Below are positions 6,324 to 39,889 of a stretch of DNA of 64,000 bases, one piece after another (position 1 is the stretch's first letter; each line of letters starts with the position of its first letter). The translations under genes and the position numbers were made by a program. The DNA is from Ectocarpus siliculosus. Lineage: Eukaryota; Sar; Phaeophyceae; Ectocarpales; Ectocarpaceae. Below the pieces are notes generated by a model, which was not told the DNA's origin, did no database searches, and worked only from the letters and a program-made list of their open reading frames with translations. Location: NCBI GenBank assembly GCA_000310025.1, contig FN648370.1, forward strand, positions 251,662-315,661, given 5' to 3'.

Positions 6324-6532
6324 TATTAGATAAAATTAAACCATCTGACCAAAGGGGTCCGCCCCCGGAGATCCCTACTCTCAATCCCAGTGATTAAGCA
6401 ACAAGCCCATGTGTTCCGGCCGGGTGCTACTACAACGTAACGAGCTCTGAGCATATATTTTATTAGATAAAAATAGACCATCTGACGAGTCAACGTTGAC
6501 TACTGGTCAGATGGCCTAATTTTATCTAATAA
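6324..6532. mobile_element. MITE-like element with three copies of a 27-bp inverted repeat
   Basis: A sequence of the form TATTAGATAAAATTA..CCATCTGACC occurs forward at 6324-6350 and inverted at 6506-6531. A third, forward copy at 6460-6486 forms a tight hairpin with the inverted one; the loop holds the palindrome TCAACGTTGA. Outer arms about 180 bp apart, with TA at the outer ends, fit a non-autonomous Tc1/mariner-like MITE. The extra internal copy suggests a nested or partly duplicated insertion. There is no transposase ORF. Confidence 0.7.
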
Positions 6533-6765
6533 CATGCACGACAGAACCATGGCATGATGCCATGCGCATGCCAATGACCCAACAAAAGCAAGATAACATT
6601 AAGATTCTTAGGGGGTCCACGCGGATCGCGCGCGGTGGGTTGGGTTGGGGGCACGGATACCCACACACGCTGGCGAGGTGGCGCTTCGTATCGTAACGGT
6701 TTCTCAGTTCTCTCACCGACGACGCGGGAACATGACCGGGACTTCACAGCTCGTTTGCTACGTGA

Positions 6766-9700
6766 ATGTTGCATGCAGTGTACTCAGACGACATGATTGA
6801 TGCAGACGTAGACGATACTACACCTGACCAGATCAATGAGGAAGCTGGCGATCTTCCGAGCCAAATTGCTGCGGGCGAGACTTGTACCGGCGTCGGCGAG
6901 GCACTGGTCGGCGACGCGCAGGAGGAGGGCAGCACCATAACACGTGATGACTTGGAGAATGGTGATGGAAATGGGCTAGACGTAGCCGAGGACACAGGTG
7001 GGAGTGGTCTTGAAAAGGGCGCTCCCGAGGACAACACGTATGCTCCTCGATCTGAGGACTGTGTCGGTGCCGCCGATGGTGCTGGCGACGATGTATATCG
7101 TCGCGTACGAAAGTTAGCCGTGGAAGCGATCAATGCGGTGAGACTCTGCTGGCCGAAGTTCATGTTGCTTGTCAACAGGGCATTCTTCTGCTTCGAAAAC
7201 ATTAGTAATCAGATCTATCTTCGGGCGTCCGTGCTGCACAAGCCCAAGAGGTGCAAAATTGCAACATTTACCGTACACCAATAGAAGTACGTACGTACGA
7301 CGGTTCTTTAGTTATCGGAGGCATAGGCTACCCAATAGCAGCATAATCTTGGACACGGTAACCCACATATCCATTTGGGGATAGACTGCTTCCGATCACG
7401 ACATTGGTAGGGTGCGCGTCGGGAAACCTACAGTAGTTGTAGGCCATGTTGATCAGTCCTTCATCACCCGCGAACTCCAATTTTCGCCACTCACCACCTA
7501 CAGTACAATGCACCACTCGCACCGTCCCACACTCCCCAATCAAGGCAAGAGCCACAAAGCAACTTGAGCTTCTATCCCCCGACGAAGCTCTTGCTGTGCC
7601 TGCCATGACTCACTGCCGGACAATGTGCGAGCATGACTTCCTGAGTCACTGGGACATGGCCGGGCGAAAACCTTACCAAAGGTACTCGGATTTTGCATAT
7701 GGCCAGCATGTTTCGGAGGACGTGTTCGAATTCCGCGTGAACGAAGCCGCTGAAGATGAGGTGGGTGAGGAGAAACTTCGCAAGGAGCCTACAGGTCCAA
7801 CACAGGTGTACAGTAGCAGGTGTCGATTTGCCCAGTGCAGATTATAGCAGAGCGTTGTCTTCTAGGTGAACGGACGCGCGAAATCTTAGTGAAGTCCTCC
7901 CATTCCGTAAGGTTGGGCCGGAGTAACGATACTCAAGGGGTATGAATGCCCGTAGTTGTCCCAATGATTTATAACCAAGCAAGATGCCACTCCACCGGCC
8001 AGAAACTAAAAAGGATATTTCAGTATTGCGCCGGAGATATGGGCATGACATGTACCCAACGAAAGTCAACGCGAACTCTTGAGGTGTACTATTGTAACCA
8101 TGGCTACCCTTGTTTCGCCACCCAGATCATGAACAGGATCAAGGAGTGCATCGAAGGGCGACTTGGGGCAGATGCACTCGACCAAGAAGGGGGTATAACG
8201 AACCACATGCTGGACAACAAGCACACGCACATCGGTATCGGAGTGCATGTTGTAGATGACCGGCTCCGCTATGCGGAGGTGAGTCAATGTGGGGTGGGCT
8301 GCAAGGTGACCTGGGGTTGACATAATCCTTATCGAAGCCCGGATCATTTCAACAACTGAACCCCTTTGAGCCAACAGTATCACAAGTCCAGGTCAAAGGT
8401 ACGTGCGGTGATTTTCTTTCCAACAATCATGCATGCACACCCTGAAACCCCACAACAACGCTCGCTCTTATGGTTTTCATCTGCTACAGATGTACAGGCG
8501 CGTGAACCCAGCAGCTTGACGAATCCACGTTTCGATATCTTCTGTCATGTGGACTTGCTTAACAGGTGTACGCCGATCGCTACTTGGAGCTGCTCGACTC
8601 TCCGGCTGAGCTATCTGTTGCAGACGCAGCCTCGGGGTTCCACATCTCGGTGCAGATGACTTCGTCGGATGTTGGACCATACGCCTGTCTCGTGTTTCAT
8701 GACCCGGTGGCGACTACGCTGACCGTGGGGGAACTGCAGCAGCAGTTCAGCGGGCCGTACTCGGATTTCACAACATCACAGGTTGTATGTAATACGGAAA
8801 CGAAACATTGTCTGCAACGTCACATATAGAAGCTACCGTAACGGTTGAGCGTTTCGTTTGTAGGTGGGGCAGCTTTGAGAACAACATCTCGTGCGAAATT
8901 TGAAAGGTGTTGACGGCACGCCCTTTGGAGATTAGTCTATCTCGCAGCTGAGGTGTGGCGATTAGGTTGTTTCTCCCAATGGCTGATCGCCAAGAAAGTT
9001 CGTGGTTACAAACCAGGCAATATAAACCCGTGCCTTGCAGACTTGCACGTGGTGCTGCATTGCCAAGATACGCGACCTCTGCGTCACGGTCTTGACGTGG
9101 TTGCTACTTCTTTTTGTATCTTGGCCCCCGTTCACTGAAAGGTGAGCATCATCTGGCCGTGGCAAATGGATGTCTTGGAGGACGGGGTTTTCGGTATTCC
9201 GGTCTCGGTATCCCCGATTGAGGCCGGCACGTACTACGTGCAGATTCTCGTCCGTGAAGACCCAGGAAGCATACCCTATGACACGGATCCAGCAGGTGGA
9301 CTCCCGTTGCCAGGAGAGAGTTTTTGCGGAGGTGCACTAGTGTTGAGGGCTCCCGAAGAAGGGGAAGCCAACATGGGGTGAGATTTTTCATTGTATCGAG
9401 GAATTCATCATGAGTTTGAACAATCATGCTGTCTGTCACTCTTCATTATGTGCTGAACTGGATAACACCAACGTCTGTGGGGGGTTACACCAAGAAATGT
9501 AGGCTAGCGAGTAAGAAACTCTCGGTGACAAATGTGTCGAGACGATAGACGGCCGTGTGGATGATTGCAAATTACGGGTCCATGGTTGAACATCATCAAA
9601 TCCCGCTACCCCGGTGAATAGGATGTCTGATCTGGACGGAGCGGGTGGACTGTTGTCCGACAATGGAGGTGGGACCTTGGAAGAGAGGGAAGCAAGAACG

Positions 9701-12098
9701 ATGGCATCGACAAGCGCACTTCGGCGCGACCTCCCGCCTATCGTCAGAGTACGCGTCGTTCAGGACGCAGGCGGAAGTATGCAGCAGGTACTCCTTTCGG
9801 GTACAGTATTCCTGGATTGAGTAAAGAAGAAACGTTGGGTTGAAACCCTTTGCGGATCCCTTGTTGTATGCATGATTCTGAGGCCACGTAAGGGCTTTTA
9901 TTTGATTTTACACCAGAGAGTGAGCAGTGGCGACTCGTTGTGTCAACACTGCTCAACGTTGATACCGCTGCTAATTGCAGTGTGAGGTACGCGGTTGTGT
10001 GCCAATCGCGGAGCTAAGTTGTTTGTTTCGGCCGCTCTCTCTTTGGGAACACTCAAAACCAGGAAGCCTCCTATGAGAACAAGGTTTTTATGCCTCGCGA
10101 AAGGGCGGAAGACATGGCGCAGTTGAATCTCGCGATGGAGTTCCTTCGCTTGGGCGCGTGGGACGACTTCTCATCGGTAGGACGCCCGCGTTTAAATTAA
10201 GTCCTTGTCGCAGCTGCTTCGTTACCTCGTCGATCTGCATCCCAACTCTGTAGATACGCGGCGATCATTCCTCGTGTGCGCGCACGTTCGTTCATGCAAA
10301 TATTCTCTGTACCATTTGATAGAAGCAAAGTCGGCACCAGTGGCATCCGTCATTCTCGGATTATGTATGTTACTTAAGACCGACGGCCTCGTGTGCTTTC
10401 TCCTGTGATTGCCAAGCGAGAACATACTAGCGAAGGAACCTGTACCATTGTTGACCCAGTCGTCGCGATGAAGGAAGAGCAGACGGCGGGTGAGATGGAA
10501 GACCCGAACGAAGGAGGAGCGGCGTCGGAAGCGCCCGTAGATCCAGATAAAGCTGCCACCGACGGTCATGACGCCCCAACAGAAGCCCTTACCACCCCCG
10601 AAGAAGCTACAGATGCTGGCGGCATTGCTACACAAGAAGCGGAAATGAAACAAGGAATCGTGGATTCTGAGGCCCGGGGCGGAAATGGTGACGCAAATGA
10701 TGCACAACAGCCTCCGGTCGAGGGAGAGGGGAGCGAGAGTGCGGATCATAAGTTGATGAATGGGCACGACGCAGAACCTGAAGTGCCATGGGTGGTTACC
10801 GATATCGCGATTGTCAGGTTCAGGGAAGGCGAAAAGGTGAGGGGAAACGTGACCTCAGGTTGGAGTAGTGCCCTACAGCGAAAACGTGCCGGGTAGTTCT
10901 GGATAAGACGTGGACCAACGGGAGAACCATGCCGTGCAGACGCAAACCATGTGTACTGCATGTACATGGCCGCCAAACGCCATGCACTCTCGTCGAAGAA
11001 CTCCAACTAGCAACTGGTGCCGGATGAACCGAAAAAGGTGGAACCACCCGAGGATTTCGAGCTCGTACCGGGAGACCTTGCCAACCCTCCGGCTTTAGAC
11101 GGCGACGATAGCACCAAAGAAGCGGTCGGAGAACAGTCAAGTGGAGAGGTGGCGGAAGGCAAGACCACCGCAGAGCCGATGGAGAGAGGGGAGGAGCACG
11201 GGGGAGAAGGGGGCACTTGTGGTCGCGATATGGTGTTTCTCTGTGTCAAGGTAAGAAATCCGTGCAGCAGCAGTATCTGCACAATCCGCTAGCCCAGTTA
11301 GCAAGCACACACACAAAACAACACATCTACGAGAGTTGCTGCGGCGACCTTGCAATGGTAATGATCAACGGTGTCTGCTTCTTGAATGCATCTCTTGCTC
11401 CAGCACCAACTGATGAATCCCAAACGATGACACCATAGCAAACGGAAGTAAGTTTCCTTGTTTCAAGTTCACCTGCTTAGAATCAAGCGTCATGAGTCGA
11501 ACAACAGCATGTGTAGGCAAGAGCAGCAACAAATGCACGTCCGCTTCACACGAAGCATAGAGAGCGTCGCCGTCTGAACTTTATCGAACATAAGCGGGGT
11601 GCGGTCAACCCTAACTGATGGTTTTCCATTCGTGCTGCGCGCCATGGCGATAACGACTGACGAAAATCCACAGATGGCGCGATACACGGATTCAGTATCA
11701 CCACTGACAGACCTTGCAGTGGTGTATGGCACAGAGGGCTTTCAGATGGGCTTTGGCTTCGTCACTATTGCGCTGCCTCAGGTGATGCCTGACGGCTGTG
11801 GATATCCACACCAACTTCTGGGAATATCCTCTGGTTCTCTAACGAGGATAGTATCAGTATCGGGACGACGATGGTTGTTAGGAGCATTAACACCGGGAAG
11901 GTGTACGTGGCCTATCTCGAAGAATACAGAAACATTTTGAACTGATGAACATGTTCCAACACCCCCAACGTGCAGGTTGTGAACGAGCTATATGATAGCA
12001 CAATACATGTGTGCTACAAAAAAGCGGGGGCTTCATTGGCTGTGATCCAGCAGGTCGCTGAAAAGACCGCCGAAAAGACGGCGAAGCAGGTCAGTTAA
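6766..12098 (+). CDS. CAP (SCP/PR-1) domain protein with acidic linkers
   Basis: Eleven exons in consistent phase: 6766-7137, 7545-7760, 8126-8278, 8566-8781, 9142-9377, 9622-9787, 10063-10176, 10417-10836, 11011-11250, 11674-11781 and 11976-12089. If the last donor (GTCAGT) is unused, the frame stops at 12098. The product is about 785 residues. Residues 1-110 are acidic and low-complexity. The CAP domain then spans exons 1-3: AVEAINA, LSPDEALAVPAMTH, HDFLSHWDMAGRKPYQRY, HVSEDVF and NKHTHIGIGVHVV. The usual CAP-cavity residues (the two histidines and the SED glutamate) are present. A beta-rich segment follows (GTYYVQILVREDP), then a helical stretch (MAQLNLAMEFLRLGAWDD), a long acidic Glu/Ala region and a short conserved-looking tail (GFQMGFGFVTIALP). 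No signal peptide is seen, unusual for CAP proteins, which are mostly secreted. The start is the first ATG of the exon. It may continue into the next gene (see findings). Confidence 0.82.
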
Positions 12099-12441
12099 AA
12101 ACCTGATAATCTTGTGGAGCGACCTTGATGTGGCGATGTGTGGGCAAGCGAATGCAACTTACGTTGCGACGAACAGGGCTGGGAGATTCTGAAAAGTCCG
12201 AGAAAATCGGAGTACACCGAGTAACATGGGCGCTGTGCCATGCAGTAAATCAAGAGAAGGGCTAGAGGATGGTATCGTGGGAGAAGAAGGTGGTGGATGG
12301 TAAGCATCTTGAACATGGTCATGAAATGAAAATCGCGTTGAGAATTTAGAAGCCCGAGTCTCAGCCGAGACGTGTGGCCCATGTTGATGATTGTGATACC
12401 AGGGCAAAGGCACATGATTGCCCTCCAGCCCCGCCCCATCC

Positions 12442-15400
12442 ATGATGCTAGATTTGACTGAATGTGTGCATCAGATCCAACGGCACCTCGGCATTGAAGG
12501 AGGAGACGGGGATGGCAAGGCTGACCCAATGGACGACGAAGCGTATGACGTCGATACGAACATGACGTCTGATCAGGTTCGTGATCTTCTCACGTCACCT
12601 TTCCCCTATCCGGCACGAGAACAACTGTTTGAGCTCCTGCATGTTGAGACAAGATGGTCATCGCCGGGATTGTTTGGGCAAACTTCACCCGTTTCGTCTC
12701 ATTTTTGTTGCTGCTCCACTCTGCCTAGAGAGTGCAATTCTTCGGGTCCACCATGTATGGTTGCCTATGTATCATGCCTGACGTGACCGACATAGTCGGT
12801 CTTCCAAAATGTATCCAGCTAACATTTCCCTCCCTACTTGTTGCACTATAAACCAAAAGATGCTGGAGTGGGAAGAGAAGCGGAATCGGGAGGCCGCGGA
12901 AAGAGCGCGCAATCGAGAAAAGGTAGGCCTGACAAGGAGCTAATGACATGATCAGTACAAGTCAACGGATTACCTCCATATCAACGCTACCTCTGCAGAC
13001 CATTAAGGTTACCAACTATCTTGACTTTTGGAGCACTTTCTCGTTCAAGGGACATTACCGCGGAAGATTGGCGAACGGTGCAGCAGCCTAGGACACAACG
13101 AAAAATCACACGCGAGGCGACAAATTGAGCGACCTTACATTTTGCGCTACACACGCGACTACGTTGAACACCTTAACAGCTTCCTTTGGAACAGCCGCAA
13201 AATCTCCCTGTTTCTCATTGCGGTATTGCATTTTGCACCGGCGCTATTGTTGAAATGGGGGCAAACCTACATCGGCCTTTCCACAATTGCATTGTTCCGT
13301 GCTATGGCCGGGCATCGTTGCACTCGCTTCAGGTGGAGAGGGACCACCGGCGCAAGGAAGCGAGCGATGCCGTGCGAAGGCAGATTGCAGAAGCCCTGAA
13401 AGAGAAGGATGAGCTCGTCAAGGTAAGAGAACTTTCAATAACGGTCCCTAGAGGCTTGGCTTGGCTTGGCACGTGATGATTAGACGAGTCCGGTTCATAA
13501 AGTTCAAGGGTCACAAATTCTTGTTCCATGCACATGAGCTGGTCTGGTTGCGAACATGTGTTCAGCTCCGGTTTTATTCCTGGTTCCTCTCGATCCGTAC
13601 AATAACACCAGAGTGTGTCACAAGTGAGCGAAACCGAGTTGCGCTCACTGACACGCATGCCCCTGGAGTTGTGAATTCTGACATACATGCAAGCGTTTCA
13701 GCGTTCGAGACACACAAGGCAGCCGTCGGTCTTCCGGTTCGTCCTAACGCTTACGCTTGCCATCTGTCGTCTTTCCGTCGGTCGTATTCCCCAGCAAAAT
13801 GGCGAATGGCAGAAGAAGATCGCGTCTCTCATGTTGAGCCAACAGAAAACCAGAGAGGAGGCCAGGACGGAGCACGGTGGGAGGGGAGTCGAGAAGGAAG
13901 CAACCCCATTGCATGAGAGCGAGAAAAACTACGCCGAATCCCTTGCCTCTATCGTGTCTTGTCGGGAGAGGCTTCAAGAGCAGCAGGTGCAAGTGGTAGG
14001 GCGGTACAGGTCGCCCTAGTTCAACTTGGGTTCGGGCCACTTGAGTAGTTGTTTTCGAGTAGTAGGGCAGCCTTTCGCGGCGTTAGCTTGCTAGACCAAT
14101 TATTTCGGCATTGGTCAGCAAGTGGTTGAAGTGACTAAGCGTTTTGTACTACAGGGAAGTGGTTCTGATCGATGTCGGACACACGACTACGGTGAACAAG
14201 AATGAGCAGGAAAATTGCTGATGCGGGTTGAGGCAACGTCTCTGTGTCTCAGGGCTTATCTGCTCGGTCCACAATATTCCCGCTGCCATGGTTGTCATAC
14301 CCTTCGTGTCAATTTCTAACGACAGGCTGAGTACGATACCGTGGCAATTGCTCTTCAGACAAGGTTGGACGAGAAAGAGTACAAATCACGCGAAATAGCT
14401 GACTCTTTCCGGGAATTTAAGAGAGAGGTGAGTTTTTGTCGTCTTCTTACAGGTCATCCGGTGAAGAAGGATCACGTTTTGTCCTTTCATAAGGAAAGAA
14501 CTATCCGCAGGCGCTGTGGTGCAGAAGACACAAATAGAGCCATGCAGCCATGGTACCCCGCGTGTAGATCGGTTTCCGGAATGTTCATTCGCGGAGAGAC
14601 CAAAAGGCCCCCATCGAGCTGGTGTTCTCACGTCGTTGTGTCTCCCTGTTTCGAGACGAACGTGTGACTACGGTTGGTTGTGTGTGGTGACTGTAGAGCC
14701 GTTCGGGGCTCTGTGCTTGTGAGCGTTTCTGCATAGTATGTTGCAACCACCACAATCGGCAATCAACTGGCCATGATCTGTGATCAGTCTGTTCGTGCGC
14801 TTCCGCTTTTGCTCTGAAGATTGCTCGGACAGCGGAACATAGTCGCACGGGCAAGGCGATACCGAAGGGGGTCATCTCTCAGTTTGAGGTCGCGGAAGCC
14901 AAGAAAGATCGGGAGATCGAAAAGGTACGAACTGCGAAGTCCTTGAGATATGTATGGGCACAGTTATTGTCATTGTTCGAGACGACATAGCTCTCACGCA
15001 CCATCTCATCTCAAAAACCTCCAGAAGTTCTCGTTTGGAACCAGATTGCGTGATGACACGTGTTTCATTGTCCTCGTCTTCCGCCAGGTGCGTTTGAAGA
15101 ACATCAACTTGCGTATGATGCTTAGAAAGGTGGAGGGAAATCTTCGAGCGAAGGAGCAACTCGCAGAAGGGTGAGTGCCGCGAAAAAACGCACGTATACT
15201 TCAACTTTCGATCGGTCGTTTCCCGACGCGAGAAGACGGCTGTTGTGTCGAGAATGGTTTTGATTTCAAACAAGTGCAGTAAGGCGCCGTGTTCAGATGC
15301 AGGTTGTATCTTCCGACTCAAACTTTGGAGTTCCAACCGTCTGCAGGCTCCATCTCATCGACTTCGAGCAACTGAAGATTGAAAACCAGACGGTCAACGA

Positions 15401-17533
15401 GAAAATCGAGGAGAGAAACGAGGAGCTCCTAAAGCTCCGGAAGAAGAACACCACCACGGTTCAGGTAACCCACTCCTAGAATCGAGGCAAACGGGTAGGT
15501 CGTGGTATAGTTGGTGGAAGATCGCAAGGTCGGTCGTTTTACAGTAAAAACTAGTTCTGAGGATTTTTGGTGAAGAAGGTAATTCCTTCATGCCTTCCCC
15601 GAACCACGGCTTTTTTCGACGTACCGGCTTCGACAGATCCTTACCCACACGAAGGAGAAGCTGCAATTCGTCGCAGCGGAGAATTCTGTCACAAGTCACC
15701 AGGTAAGATTTTCAATAGAAGGAAAATAAAACGTCACCAGGGCATGGTACTGGTGGCGTCATGAGTGTACGTAACAATTGGCTGCACAGGACCATCCGGG
15801 AAGAAATCGCTCACACCGCTCGTCTCGAACTACCACTAGAGCAATTCAACCAACATACGTGAAGGAGGTGGACTGAAGGAGGCGGGCTTTTTCGGGAAGG
15901 AAACGGAAATTTTCTTTTCTTTCCGGTGTTCTCAGTCTCTTACCTTGATGAAAGACAAAATAACTCGTCTATTGGAAACGGGGCATCTTTTGCTGGCTCG
16001 CTACATTCACATGCACTTGGATGTAGCGAACGTAGTGGAAGCTACTTCACCATCCAAGGAGGTGACCTTGCAATCATCACCTCCGGCATGTCGGATTGCG
16101 AGTTTGATGGAGTCTCCGTTCCCGCTCTAGAATGTTGGCCGTACACGTGCGCACCGGGCAGCTCGGTATAGTGCTGCAGTTTGGCATAGGATAAGAGTAG
16201 CCCTCGATGAGGTTGACAGGGCTGCGGGGATGATTGATGTGGAGAGGGACGGTGTTTGGTGGCATCTTGAGGGGGTGCTTCGCTACTGCTCACACAGACT
16301 AGAGAGATGCAGGCCATCAAGTACCAGTACCTCCCGCTGTGCGTAGCTCCATAGTGTGCTGCAAATCCGGCATTACCCTTTATACCATTCGTCTGTATTT
16401 GACAGCTTTCGATTCTGGAAGACGACCTCAACCAGGAAAGGGATCGTCTCACCGGAGCCAAGAAAGATAGAGACACCCTTCGCAGGGAAGTGGCCAGTCT
16501 TAGGCAGAGCCAGGGGTTTGCAAACAGGTGCGTGTTCGAAACATGAAGTTGCAAGGTTTCTGCGCCCAATAAACATGCGTTAGTTGGACGATATTTTAAC
16601 CAACGAACGTACCGGAAGTAGTACCATCGCTTGGGCCCGTGCAAGGGGAGAATAAGCTTGCTTGCACAAAATGTCCAGGGTGCGATCCCATAACAATTTC
16701 CCTCATAACCTCCGGTAGTTTATACCACTGTTCTGAAGAGCACCGTGTGCTCGTGCGGCTGAAAATCAATTTACCTCGTCGTTGTCGTCCCCATTCTCGC
16801 GTGCCGTCTGTACCATCCAGCGATCTACTGATCCTGGACTTCGAGCAAAGAAAGTCGCACCTAAAGAAGCTAGGGCAGAAGCTGGAGGAGATGAAATCGA
16901 AGCACCACCTTCTGCTGCTGGAGCAAGTAAGGAAACTTCCGCCCCGAGTCTACCGATGGTGTGACGTCCGTTTTCCCCCGACTGTAAGCCGGAAAGTTGA
17001 AAATGAAATCTTCATGGTGGCCGTTTGCCAATTTTTGGTTCATGGTGAAGCGAGTTCCGACAGCCCCTCTCATACCGGGTTCTAGGAAGAGGACCCCACT
17101 GGAGGAAGTTGTCGCACTGCTAATACAACAGCGACATCAATGAGTGGGAAAACATGAGGCATATGATAGGAGCCTAATAATTGTCAAGAAGCAGACTTCA
17201 CTGAGAGATTCCCCCCCTTTTGGGTCATCTCGTTGTGATGTTTCCAGCCGGCCTTATCTTTTCGAGGTGATGATTCAAGTGTAGCCTGAAAATCGGTTGG
17301 CATATTAGCGACCGGAGTGTCTCCAGAACGCTTAATTGGATAATCCCGTGGCTTGAACCGGTTCACGTCAAGTAGGATAGACTCTCGGGTTGTTGCCAAA
17401 TCCATGCTCGCTCCCACATGAAAGCTGAGTCAGCCAAGCTACCGTTTCGACCCCTTCATGCGTTCCCTTTACTTGGACAACGCAGGAGAGCATCGAAGAA
17501 CGCACGCAAGAGCTAGGGGCGGTGCAGCTGTGA
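12442..17533 (+). CDS. CFAP184: CCDC96/CFAP184-type axonemal coiled-coil protein
   Basis: Exons: 12442-12576 (or 12475-12576 if spliced from upstream), 12860-12922, 13333-13422, 13795-13986, 14326-14427, 14820-14924, 15088-15170, 15347-15464, 15637-15702, 16406-16527, 16821-16926 and 17486-17533. All phases agree and the model ends at TGA. The product is about 409 residues, mostly charged heptad-type helix. Diagnostic blocks of the CCDC96/CCDC113-type coiled coil are clear: SRTGKAIPKGVISQFEVAEA, VRLKNINLRMMLRKVEGNL, HLIDFEQLKIENQTVNEKI, ERNEELLKLRKK and LTHTKEKLQFV. Known role: CCDC96 pairs with CCDC113 in the ciliary axoneme near radial spoke 3 and the nexin-dynein regulatory complex, supporting beat regulation. 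The N terminus is acidic (GDGDGKADPMDDEAYD), as in other members. The separate start at 12442 is a guess; the chosen ATG precedes LDLTECVHQ. It lies directly downstream of the CAP gene on the same strand. Confidence 0.9.
17184..17405 (-). CDS. Small antisense ORF of unknown function
   Basis: A 73-codon ORF starting MDLATTRESILLDVNRF lies antisense inside the last intron of the CCDC96-type gene (16927-17485). Its composition is protein-like and not low-complexity, and includes PRDYPIKRSGDTPVANMP. I recognise no family. It could be an exon of an unseen minus-strand gene, a retro-inserted fragment or a chance ORF. Confidence 0.3.
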   Translation of the reverse strand: MDLATTRESILLDVNRFKPRDYPIKRSGDTPVANMPTDFQATLESSPRKDKAGWKHHNEMTQKGGNLSVKSAS

Positions 17534-19534
17534 ACCAAGTTGGATATTGCTTGAAGTGATTGCTCTTGTTCGCAATTGCTAGTGTAGACTAAAAGACGTG
17601 TTGCTGCGTAGGCGACCGGGGAGTTCCTGGTGCGAGATCGCCAAAACTACACGTAAAAGGTTCAGTCATTGTTGGCATTGTAGCACCCGCTATCGTTGAA
17701 CGTCAAACAAGTATGGCGTCTATGAAGAGCGAAACGGGTGATGTAGTCCGTTCGCCTTGTTTTCATTTCGTATCCGGTACTCAATTCGGCTATTGACAGA
17801 GTAAATGGCGTTGAGCTCCAGGAGTTAGAGTGTCTTGAGGTCTGGTGGATTGGCAGCTCAACTGTGCTTCTTGGTTTGGAGGCTTGGCAACGAACACGTG
17901 CGCACTTGCCGGGGCCATGCAGTCTCGTGGGGAAGTCGGCGATGACCCCCTTCTGGGGTAAGTGTTCATATTCGCGTCATATTATTCCACCTGAACGATC
18001 GGCATATTATCATGCTCCCTGAGCACAGGTTTCTTCCTCTTGTCGGCGTTTGTCTCACCTCCCGGTAGGCGCGCAGCTTTCTTTGGTGAGGAAACTGGCC
18101 CACATCCTCCTTCACGGCTTTTTTTTTCGCCAAAGGGTATTTCTTCCGAAACAGGGAATCAAATTAGATAATTATTGGAGAACCTGAAAACCACTAATAC
18201 AAGGTTTTCCTGTAAAACTGTGCGAGCATCTTGGAGCGTTTAACACATCTTCCTCATGTGTCACAAGAGAGCCCTGCCATCTTCGGGGCGGAGGCATCGC
18301 ATACTACTGTAGGTCCAAATGGAAGAAAATAGTTCCAAGGAAGCCCAACGCTATAGTTGAGCGGGGGGGATAGCACAAATTGTGCTCACGGAGACAAACG
18401 CTAGACCAGCCCTTGTTCTACGTCGTCCGTTCTTTGTAGCCGAGAGGTTCCAAACGGACGTAAATTTACCCCCCAAAGAACGCACCTCGTCTTCCTGCAA
18501 TTCTCTAGAACGACGATCGTCTAGCCTCCGTACATGACCTCAAACCCTACGCCTGGCTCCCCCTCTTCACTAAGGGCTGTGATGCTGCTGGGCGCAGTGT
18601 TCCCTAGGATACGAGTCGAATCGTCTTGACAAGTGCTTGCATAGCAGTGGTTTAGTGTTTCCTCCGACTCAAGTAAATGAGCAACTTCGTCGCACAAGAG
18701 TTCTTTCCGTTGTCGTGCTTTGTCGAGGATGCTGAATCTGTCCAAACGGAGACAGGACGGGGGAAATGGGGCTGACCGAGTCGAAATTCCGTATCGTCTG
18801 CAGGGAGTTGATAAAACATGAAGGCATGTCGCACAGGATCGCAGAAAATAGTATTGCTATGATGATCAAGCCCTCCACCGAATGAATTCTGAGGGCAACA
18901 GTTCCCACATGGCGTTAGGAAGCACATCGTGTCTCCCCCAAGTTCAGGCATAAATACCTCTGCTGCCGCTCAAAAGTGTAGGCTAGTATGCCTACTGTCG
19001 CCTCGACACGCGAGCTGAAAGTAGTCCCAACCCTCCCGCACAGCGTACTCTTCTCCAGATCCTGCACCATCACAGTACAATAGCCACCAACGGAAGCGCG
19101 GAAAAGTGCGGACTCTTTTCGCTTGGCCTGCAACCCATCTTCGAGGAGCGGTTTTGGTTGTTGTGCGTCTACGAGATGGTTTCGAAAAGTTGTTCGATGT
19201 GCGATGTATCGCCGAGACAACATAATAAATCGCCCATACACACGAAACATCGTTGAAAGCTCGTTCCCGAAAGAGAAGTACTGATTGATATGTACCGTAG
19301 ACGATATTCACCAAACATCCCGAACATTATGGTTTGGCGTATGCAAGGCGGCCTACACAGAGGGATACACATCGCTTTCTCGCCTGCCGAACGAGCAGAT
19401 TTGGCGCACAGCCCCGACGCGGCGAAGAGGAGTACCACAGGGTTAGAATGCCAACGTTCCGAGGCCCCCCATCCTGCCCAGCGCGAAACGATCCGGATCA
19501 GATGAAACTGGCCGTTTTGCGTGATGTTCCAATT
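17534..19534. other. Gap between convergent genes, with one possible minus-strand terminal exon
   Basis: Mostly non-coding. On the minus strand, 18732-18528 has a strong pyrimidine-rich acceptor (ending GTTTGGACAG) and then an open frame (FSILDKARQRKELLCDEV, HLLESEETLNHCY) to a stop at its left end. No partner exons in matching phase were found, so it is either an alternative 3' exon of the large minus-strand gene to the right or chance. Nothing else is supported here. Confidence 0.35.
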
Positions 19535-25500: not shown

Positions 25501-28500
25501 ACGAATCTCCATCTCGAAAGAGATCATGAGATCAATGGTCAATAAGCAGCTGAGTACGAATCATACGCGCCCCCTCCGCTAGTTCTAGTTGGAGGACACC
25601 CTTTGTCAACGGTCTCTCTACACTAGACGATACTTGGTGTCTGCCATCAGGCGCTTCAGGTTATTCATTCCATGGTCAAATAGCTCAATGTTCAAACATA
25701 CCTGGAACAGAATCTCCAGATCTTCGACGATCAGTTCCCCTTTTTCGTCCTTGTCGGCGAGCATGAAAAGCGCCTCGAAGAAGCTGCTGACTACAAAGTC
25801 GTCGCCCCCTGAGTCTACGTTGTCGCGATTTTCTCTCTTCCGGTCTTCCGCCAAAACCTTTGGGCGTAGAGGGCGTGTGAAAGGCGCGCAGCGTGGCGAT
25901 CCACTGTACTGTAGGTCATTTTAGCCCTACGTGTTCCAAGTTATCTCTTCGGCAGCCCAACAGCTTTGCTGGGGAGTGGTATTTGTATTGCCATTCCGCA
26001 TATGCATACTGCAAAACAAAGGCGAGTGACACCCACGAAGTTACAGACCCTCAAACCACGCAAGAATTGAAACCACGAAACACAAACGGTCGTGAACACG
26101 GGCGTGGATGTCTGCGCCAAATGCATCTCAGAAATGCAAGAGGATTCACAACAAATTTGATTTCGAACTACCCCACGTAGAAGATTGTACACACCAGACA
26201 AGTCTCTGACGTTTGTGGTTGCTGGAACGGTATCGTCGCCAACAACAGCCATAATACACCCACCTTGTTCCAAATTTGCATCAGCTTGCTCGCAGCATCG
26301 GCTTCAGGGTTGATTCCAAGCGTATCTGCATACTCAGAGACGAGCCCCAGTCCTAGCATTCCGTCCTTTGCCATGCACCCCTTGATTCGACGGGTCACAT
26401 CCACCCGGGGATCGATTGGTGCAACCGCTGCGTTGCTCTCCCTGTGCAACAAAAGAATATGTATGACCACATCATGCCGCCTCAACGTCGTCGTTAATTT
26501 GGCGTTCTACATACCATGGTTAGAAAAGGGCGCACAACATGCCAATCTATCCAGTTAGTTCAAAGCACACAGAGATGAAGGTACGCTGAGTTTCGCCTTT
26601 TGAACTGGCGCTCATCGATTGTGTTCCATCTCATATCATATCCCGATCAAAACGACCCTTGCATAGAAATCGCGTTGAACGGGTAACACAGAACAGACCT
26701 GTGGAGCTTGAGGTTGGTCACTTTATTGCCCACGATATGCTTCAGGCTTCGGAAGTGCGCCGTCGGCTTGCGATTAGCTATTCGAAGTAGTTCCGATGCC
26801 ACGACTCTGTGGTACGGTATCTTGGAAATACCCCAAATACAGCCAAGGGCGCGATATTGTTGAGCCGCACGTCGAACGAGGAGAGACGGCGAAACGGGTA
26901 TGGAATCAAAGCAAAAAAACGCATTGTTAACGTTATGAATGCCGCGCCTGCTCGAAGAGGTCGTCAGAGTTGAGAATTCGCACCCACTTTTGTTAGACAT
27001 AGCCTTAGCACGAAAGACGGGATGAAACCGCAAGACACGGATAGTGAGCAAAATGTATTACTTGTTCGAAACTTGTCAACAAAGAAATGCACACTGAAAC
27101 CTGCCAGGCGAATCCGTCTGCCCCACCATTGACTGCCCACGGAACACGCGTAGCGGGTAGCTAAAGTACGGCTCTATAAGGAGGACCTTTTATCGCGACG
27201 GATGGGCATGACTTGGCTACTTCAGAGGCACGAATATCGCCTGACAATAATATACCACGTAGCCACTACAGGTGGGCACCAGCCAGTCAAGGACAATCTC
27301 CCTGCTCGAAGAAATGGTCATGCGTTGATCGCGTGCAAAACGGACCCGCAACTTGGTACCTGGAGGTTGAGTTCGTACTCTCCAGTTGCGCTAGCGTCAT
27401 TGAAAAGCGTTTCGTCTTTATGGGACGTGTCGCAGTTCTTCATGTTGACAATCAGATTCCCCTCATCTCGGGTGGACATTCGCATCGCCACACACAATGC
27501 CTGCAACCGGGGGGGGGGGGGGTGTACTCAGAATCGTGCATGCCGTAGTCGTTAGACCATTGACCTCGCATCCCTACAAAGCCGGGACGGAGCACGCCGG
27601 GTTCTCAACGGACCAGACTCTCACCGNNNNNNNNNNNNNNNNNNNNNNNNNNNNNNNNNNNNNNNNNNNNNNNNNNNNNNNNNNNNNNNNNNNNNNNNNN
27701 NNNNNNNNNNNNNNNNNNNNNNNNNNAGGGTCACTAGCTGCTTCGCCTCGTCCGGCTTAATCTTCAGAGAAGGGGGGGGGGGGCAGCAAAATGAGCCATT
27801 TCAGTAGTCTACATATTGAACTTTCTCCTACTACGGTTTTTGAGGAAGAATGTAGGGAATATGTTTTGTAATCCTGCCCACACAACAACGGGTTGATGCC
27901 GGCATGAAGTGTATTCGAAGCAACCGGAACACAATACAACTTCAAGTGCACGCAAACGGCACCTTTTCTCGGATCTGTGTTCGAAGAAAAAAGCTACCAT
28001 GTAGAATAGGACGTAGGAAGTAGCCCACGCACCTCGCCCCCGTTCTGTCCGATGCGATTTCCAGAAAGGTCCAAGTACTTCATGGTTGCGTTCGTCTGAA
28101 TGCAGGAGAAACGTCGTTGTGGGCATGGAGAGTCTTGGCAACGGCAAGCATGCAGAGAACAGTGCCCCGAAAGGGAACAGCACCAATACCAGCACCAGCA
28201 CCAGCAATAAAACCACATGTCAACTAACTTAAAATGCTCTGCACACACGTTCGACTTTTAACGAAATACAGATAGCTAACTGTGCTGGAAGACATAGCCC
28301 TGGCCCATGCCCTTCCGAGAAGGGGGATTGAAATACCCCTTCCAAAGCTAGAATTGGCTGTGGAATCGCAAACTCATCCCTCATCGGCCTTTACTGGCCG
28401 AGTACACAGCCTGAGCCAAACCTGATACCTTCAGTGCGAATGCCAGGACCATGGCAGCCGATGGGGTCACCGAGTTGTATGACAGGTCCACACTCGACAA

Positions 28501-38865: not shown

Positions 38866-39579
38866 TCATCCGTTGCCTGCAGCCGAGCATCTCGGGATGT
38901 CGTTGTGCTCGGTCATCGAAGCAAGGAGGGCGTTGAAGTTTTCAATTCGTTCGCGATGAGTCTGCTCGACCATGCCTCGAATCTTCTTCCCCTGCATCAC
39001 AAGGGGCAAAGAGCATTCAGATAGCAATTAGAACAAGTTGACGTCCTTTCCACATTTCAGTCAACGGGCGAATGGTGCCAATCATGGTGCCAACAACTCC
39101 GTGTCTGGACGACGTGAGGTGAGAACGCGCAATACATGGGAGCGCACCGGCCCAAACACGAGGTACACAAGCCCTACATAACGTCGACAATAAATGCACC
39201 ACCAAAGTCAGCAACACTCTAAAAGTCTCTTTTGCATGTGCGGGTCTCCAAGAGTCGACATACAGGCTTCCTGCCATCAGCATACAGCTCGTCACGAACA
39301 TATATACATGAAGCGATCCGACAGGTGAAGTATCTCACCTCGCGTTCCAGCTGCTTCTTCCTGAATCGCCGTTGGGCTGGCGTCAGCATGTCGTCTACCT
39401 CCTCCCCCGCTTGCTCATTCCCTTCCCCAGCCCCCTCTTTCTTTGCGCCGTCGTCTGACCCAGACCCTCCAGCATCAGCACCATCGGCCGCTGATCCAGA
39501 GCTGCGTTCATCCTCAATAGCAGCCTCCCGCGCCCGGGCGGCTGCTTCAGCCTCCTCCCGCTTACGCTTCCCCTTCTTC
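38866..39579 (-). CDS. FAM32A: FAM32A-like protein, C-terminal part
   Basis: Two exons, 39579-39339 and 38991-38866, join in phase 0 and end at TGA. The first is a Lys/Arg then Glu/Ala/Gly-rich stretch (KKGKRKREEAEAAARAREA) that ends EEVDDMLTPAQRRFRKKQL. The second reads VEQTHRERIENFNALLASMT then EHNDIPR. This matches the FAM32A C terminus, where a THKxRVxxFNxxL segment precedes EHYDIP. FAM32A is a small nuclear protein seen in the catalytic spliceosome, near the active site. The internal acidic insert makes this copy longer than the roughly 110 residues usual in animals. The first exon here needs an upstream exon ending in phase 2; I could not locate the usual N-terminal Leu-Lys-Leu-Lys-Gly-type segment, so the 5' end is missing from this model. 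Confidence 0.78.
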
Positions 39580-39889
39580 CTGAAGAGAACCACAAACGCA
39601 AACAACGTTCCAACTTAGGTATCATGCAGCATGGTATGAGCGCAACACCCTCCCTCGGCAGTCAAGCAGACGCCTCAAGAACGGCCGGAAGAGGTTACAT
39701 GTTGCAGAGAGCTGCAATATCGACTCCCACACGTGCAACAACATCACGCCATAGCCAGAGCACGCACAAGCTGTTCCGCTTGAAGACGACCTTCAAACGC
39801 CGGCGCGCGGATATATTTATTTCAATGATAAATTGAGCTGTCACCGGTGAAGTTGATGTCCTTAACCCTTTTGAGTCTTCAGGCGTTCT

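Follow-up and report, generated by a model that had tools for sequence, protein, structure and literature searches.

We analyzed a 64,000-nucleotide (nt) stretch of the Ectocarpus siliculosus genome (contig FN648370.1, positions 251,662 to 315,661 of the forward strand; hereafter the window), in which two exon chains lie head-to-tail on the plus strand, a gene encoding a CAP-domain protein and, downstream of it, a gene for the coiled-coil protein CCDC96/CFAP184. The CAP gene model occupies 6766-12098 (11 exons, 787 amino acids (aa), calculated pI 4.2) and the CCDC96/CFAP184 model 12442-17533 (12 exons, 409 aa). Both domains are present, both exon chains can be traced and the two chains are compatible in frame. 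We argue that, on balance, the two probably make up one gene for a single fused protein, as the first-pass annotation of this DNA had proposed.

Identity of the two parts

The CAP domain is known mostly from secreted proteins, such as those of the PR-1 and CRISP families. In the protein of the first chain it was recognized as PF00188 at residues 119-242 (E-value 2.5e-9, 38.4 bits against a curated cut-off of 21.1). At the position of the CAP-typical N-terminal LxxxNxxR the protein reads VEAINAAR at residue 119, with V replacing L; residues 119-262 hold three Cys, and the domain gave no match to the CAPE motif (PxGNxxG). We noticed no hydrophobic N-terminus by a crude hydropathy test, used in place of a signal-peptide predictor. 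Neither the CAP protein nor its CAP domain alone found a credible match in PDB, and an NCBIfam DalA match, at 25.2 bits far under its cut-off of 200, was not used. Within exons 9-11 (11011-12060) we observed the motifs TDIAIV...FLCVK and TDLAVV...HVCYKK, which may resemble an MABP-type repeat; Pfam gives no match. A single-sequence fold of the 40-aa peptide of the last exon was helical, but the peptide was folded in isolation and the result was therefore not used.

The CCDC96 model matched PF13870 with an E-value of 2.3e-39 (135.4 bits against a curated cut-off of 31.6). It also matched 11 distinct PDB sequences, the best being 8glv_Fy (3.3e-55) and 8tek_P (2.2e-50), with further CCDC96-type matches to 9fqr_Ks, 9e5c_1e and 8j07_i1. 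The chain named CCDC96 (8j07_i1) was matched at 3.3e-35 as against 4.9e-14 for the chain named CCDC113 (8j07_i2), and the second 8glv chain, 8glv_F4, at 8.5e-25, was weaker than 8glv_Fy. Here 8glv_Fy and 8tek_P, which are named only DUF4201, are taken by us for CCDC96 and 8glv_F4 for CCDC113, and the organisms are presumably Chlamydomonas (8glv), Tetrahymena (8tek) and human (8j07). One further match, 9y6s_9t (3.5e-23), was placed with neither protein. As judged by these similarities, the second gene is CCDC96/CFAP184, resembling CCDC96 more than the paralogue CCDC113. A home-made coiled-coil score flagged 42 of the 382 windows of CCDC96 and 1 of 760 windows of the CAP-gene protein (0.8 in shuffles); the score is weak, as shuffled CCDC96 still gave about 22 windows. 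A stricter score flagged nothing, CCDC96 included, and was discarded.

Coiled coil in a published clade of CAP proteins

In a published survey, 141 algal CAP proteins drawn from 19 genomes were sorted into five clades (PMC12879055). As described in the accessible part of that study, Cys is conserved at six positions in clades 1-4, which also carry the CAPE motif. The 19 sequences of clade 5 lack that motif and share two conserved Cys; they are credited with "a long coiled-coil domain" and are placed among bacterial CAP domains in the published tree. With its three Cys and no CAPE motif, the CAP domain in the window fits clade 5 best among the published clades. Since by the weak coiled-coil score the CAP gene alone shows almost no coiled coil, and clade 5 has a long one, the simplest source of the clade 5 coil would be CCDC96, by a chain of reasoning that starts from the published description. 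The same source reports that the Dictyota clade 5 gene contig1497.3551.1 reaches its highest expression in sperm, in which nearly every other PR-1 gene is silent, and that the clade 5 protein Ec-20_001030 is the longest Ectocarpus protein of the survey and has many extended helices (PMC12879055). It also gives exon numbers of up to 22 in Ectocarpus and Saccharina, a figure not tied to the gene described here (PMC12879055).

Precedent for a domain added to CCDC96 comes from Tetrahymena, whose CCDC96 is reported to bear an extra N-terminal WD40 propeller (PMC10504270), which suggests that the N-terminus of CCDC96 tolerates added domains. A published clade with a long coil and a sperm-expressed member, combined with this precedent, tilts the balance somewhat towards fusion. 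The first-pass annotation had further called a CAP domain joined to an axonemal coiled coil a new architecture. This holds only in part, because brown algal CAP proteins with a long coiled coil had already been reported (PMC12879055). No CAP-CCDC96 fusion is described in the titles or abstract openings surfaced by our literature search.

The junction between the two genes

The last CAP exon (11976-12098 when read to its stop) closes in phase 0 after 12089 at CAG/GTCAGT if the genes are fused, and otherwise runs on to the in-frame stop TAA at 12096-12098. The first CCDC96 exon (12442-12576) has an ATG at 12442, with which it would begin if there are two genes, and a phase-0 AG directly before 12475, where it would begin in a fused gene. 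The disputed 385 nt between these sites (12090-12474) would thus be an intron of the fused gene, or the 3' untranslated region (UTR), promoter and 5' UTR of two genes. All of these positions are as the first-pass annotation had given them. Excising the 385 nt yields a 23-exon in-frame model of 1183 aa with 0 internal stops and a calculated mass of about 130 kDa, as compared with 84 and 48 kDa for the separate proteins. The absence of a frame break, claimed earlier, is thereby borne out, but it is weak evidence for fusion because 18 of the 21 modelled introns are in phase 0, so that compatibility is to be expected.

Splice sites were scored with matrices built from the 21 introns of these same gene models, and the scores are accordingly rough. 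The donor CAG/GTCAGT, which favours the fused reading, scored 6.6, a value reached by 3% of 4289 plus-strand GTs. The acceptor at 12475 scored 1.0. Of the 22 other exons (disputed sites excluded), 1 contains an internal phase-0 donor that scores at least as well as the disputed one, and 16 contain an internal phase-0 acceptor that equals or exceeds the one at 12475. Relative to the modelled sites both fusion sites score towards the low end, and the acceptor is unremarkable.

As an intron the gap is of ordinary length, the 21 modelled introns measuring 163-703 nt (median 293) and 15 of them being shorter than 385 nt. Under the rival explanation, two ordinary tandem genes with the CAP gene ending at the TAA at 12098 and a stand-alone CCDC96 of 409 aa starting at ATG 12442 after a short spacer, the two UTRs and a promoter would have to fit into 343 nt from stop to ATG. 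This is tight for an intergenic stretch when set against Ectocarpus autosomes, for which the reported medians are 1302 bp between genes and 524 bp for introns (PMC12477816). The words AATAAA, ATTAAA, TGTAA and TATAA were absent from the gap, which is uninformative because none was found within 600 nt after CCDC96 either. The best coding-like segment of the gap scored 9.0, above 20 of 21 introns, and was exceeded by 7 of 42 flanking 385-nt non-coding blocks. Taken together, the DNA signals leave the choice between one gene and two genes undecided.

Points against fusion and alternative readings

Several observations weigh against the fused gene, beginning at the junction itself. Its acceptor is equalled or bettered by 32% of 4007 AGs; in a leave-one-out comparison 15 of the 21 modelled donors outscored the fusion donor and 15 of the 21 acceptors the fusion acceptor; and C at +3, as in CAG/GTCAGT, occurs in 0 of the 21 modelled donors. 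The in-frame ATG at 12442 stands exactly where a separate CCDC96 gene would need its start. The purine content of the gap, 0.587, exceeds that of every one of the 21 introns (mean 0.494, maximum 0.569).

The protein comparisons add to these. Among the five PDB sequences taken for CCDC96 (8glv_Fy, 490 aa; 8tek_P, 794; 9fqr_Ks, 556; 9e5c_1e, 407; 8j07_i1, 555) none is named for a CAP domain, a comparison of chains by name that is limited by the fact that a CAP search of PDB would miss distant CAP domains. Ec-20_001030 is reported to be abundant also in sporophyte and gametophyte and to go up in high salt (PMC12879055), which is a poor fit to a flagellar protein. The clade 5 coiled coil is never named in the accessible part of that text, where a term search for CCDC returned nothing (PMC12879055), and annotation can merge neighbouring genes. 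Most of CCDC96 is backed by homology, as are CAP exons 1-3. The basis for CAP-gene exons 4-11 is open frames and splice motifs only, with no homology tie to the CAP domain, so that the first chain may in turn consist of two genes.

A relative of the gene offers a further comparison. Exact-peptide scans of viral contigs and genome contigs confirmed no relative, nor did a profile scan of the viral contigs. The profile scan of genome contigs gave one eukaryotic-looking locus (L001) with a CCDC96-like gene, an exon piece of which matched Tetrahymena CCDC96 best (4.2e-8). The gene has neighbours on the opposite strand, upstream one for a class 3 lipase and downstream one for a VPS9-domain protein. 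No CAP match was found among the 23 listed open reading frames (ORFs) of L001 of at least 100 aa, shorter exons lying outside that scan, which again speaks against fusion; the source organism of L001 need not be close to that of the window. The contig (1-12168), which carries the CCDC96-like, lipase and VPS9 genes, is filed in a Verrucomicrobiaceae genome bin and is probably a contamination in the public record.

Two tandem genes would be favoured by the in-frame ATG, the composition of the gap as compared with introns, the CCDC96-like gene of L001 without detected CAP, and a CCDC96 model whose 409 aa nearly equal the 407 aa of chain 9e5c_1e. The 11 codons 12442-12474 are also mildly coding-like, with 8% of stop-free intron 11-mers scoring as high and 21% of coding ones as low, on a score derived from the codons of both genes, without the disputed exon. 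But besides the tight 343 nt, the gap purine is above all 42 of the 42 flanking blocks as well (mean 0.506; exon average 0.599), so that the gap is odd as intergenic DNA too, and the long coiled coil of the best-fitting CAP clade (PMC12879055) would be left unexplained. We regard two tandem genes as possible but rather unlikely.

The purine of the gap peaks at 0.75 in the 60-nt window from 12240, which would suit another reading, improbable in our estimate, in which there are two genes and CCDC96 starts from an exon within the gap. Such a candidate alternative first exon lies at 12226-12289 on the plus strand (MGAVPCSKSREGLEDGIVGEE); its ATG has A at -3 and G at +4, its donor AAG/GTGGTG scores 6.5, and phase-compatible acceptors at 12452 or 12500 score 1.3 and 3.6. 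The peptide would start MGAVPCSK..., presumably a myristoylation-like motif. One such exon was found where about 0.15 would be expected by chance in a stretch of this length, a number that counts against it together with the lack of homologue support for the peptide. Finally, since the signals are adequate for one gene and for two, stand-alone transcripts could occur alongside an occasional read-through fused isoform; nothing specific points to such coexistence and we consider it very improbable.

One fused gene remains our preferred reading. Of what the first-pass annotation had proposed, the in-frame route and the two real genes stand and the literature lends a tilt in its favour, but the joining itself is no more than likely and its acceptor is unremarkable.

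Gene models and other features of the window

All exons are on the plus strand, and their borders were placed manually, guided by reading frame, splice motifs and the spacing within the conserved coiled coil. CAP exon 1 (6766-7137) opens with ATG 6766 and encodes an acidic N-terminus and the start of the CAP domain in an open frame up to the donor GCG/GTGAGA. Exon 2 (7545-7760) holds the core of the domain, its ORF matching PF00188 with an E-value of 1.6e-4, and exon 3 (8126-8278) supplies the remainder, the spliced match spanning the residues given above. Exons 4-5 (8566-8781, 9142-9377) are open and phase-compatible, without a Pfam match and beta-rich by eye; exons 6-8 (9622-9787, 10063-10176, 10417-10836), likewise open and phase-compatible and without homology support, encode a linker and an acidic region; exons 9-10 (11011-11250, 11674-11781) were modelled by frame and splice motifs and have no Pfam match.

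In CCDC96, exons 2-7 (12860-12922, 13333-13422, 13795-13986, 14326-14427, 14820-14924, 15088-15170) encode coiled coil and follow phmmer alignments. Exons 8-9 (15347-15464, 15637-15702) are the best-conserved part (LIDFEQLKIENQTVNEKIEERNEE), and the exon-8 ORF matches PF13870 with an E-value of 1.7e-14. Exons 10-12 (16406-16527, 16821-16926, 17486-17533), ending in a TGA stop, were placed by frame, splice motifs and phmmer alignments. Two draft exons, 15936-16061 and 16303-16339, disrupted both the frame and the conserved coiled-coil spacing and were left out for that reason.

A hairpin-like inverted repeat (6457-6535; arms of 34 nt, 88% complementary, 11 nt apart) precedes the CAP start by about 230 nt, and one of its arms has a further 26-28 nt copy at 6324-6351. 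Its 23-nt core, allowing at most 3 mismatches, has 3 matches in the window, all at the 6324-6535 site; the repeat is perhaps a small mobile-element remnant. Elsewhere in the window there is an assembly gap of 100 N at 27627-27726, and a minus-strand ORF at 39222-39614 with a weak FAM32A match (E-value 8e-4, 20.6 bits against a cut-off of 22). Among 92 ORFs scanned outside 6700-17600, two matched sulfatase-modifying factor (best E-value 3.1e-12) and two protein kinase (best 9.4e-5); none of the 29 distinct ORFs rescanned singly was among these matches. Rfam gave no match at gathering scores.

Proposed arrangement and comparison with known systems

If the parts are joined, a single gene of 23 exons (6766-17533) would have its two parts connected by splicing of the phase-0 intron 12090-12474, and its product would run from an acidic N-terminal part, with the CAP domain and uncharacterised domains, into the CCDC96/CFAP184 coiled coil. 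By analogy with Tetrahymena, this C-terminal coil would pair with CCDC113/CFAP263 and dock beside the nexin-dynein regulatory complex near radial spoke 3. The CAP head would then sit at the lineage-variable N-terminal end, roughly where the Tetrahymena WD40 propeller sits, and may act on the flagellar axoneme as a scaffold or as a module that binds a ligand. CCDC96 and CCDC113 of Tetrahymena are reported to link radial spoke 3, dynein g and the nexin link (PMC7987202). If true, a CAP head on CCDC96 would be a lineage-specific change to conserved beating machinery, and a group of algal PR-1 proteins would shift from 'defence' to flagella.

With secreted CAP proteins the protein described here shares the PF00188 domain, but it differs from them in having no hydrophobic N-terminus by the crude test, few Cys and long acidic regions. 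With CCDC96/CFAP184 (FAP184) the gene has in common the conserved C-terminal coiled coil with LIDFEQLKIENQ...NEKIEERNEE, and if fused it would bear about 785 extra N-terminal residues with the CAP domain. A lineage-specific globular N-terminal domain, as in the fused model, is also described for Tetrahymena CCDC96, although there the added domain is a WD40 propeller and here it would be CAP (PMC10504270). Brown algal CAP clade 5, compared through its published description, resembles the CAP domain of the window in its few Cys and missing CAPE motif, with two conserved Cys as against three here (PMC12879055). We give an even chance to the wider proposal that clade 5 is a set of CAP-CCDC96 fusion proteins, with CAP as the permanent head of an axonemal regulatory coiled coil in the flagella of brown algae; were this so, the sperm expression, the few Cys and the long coiled coil of the clade would all be explained.

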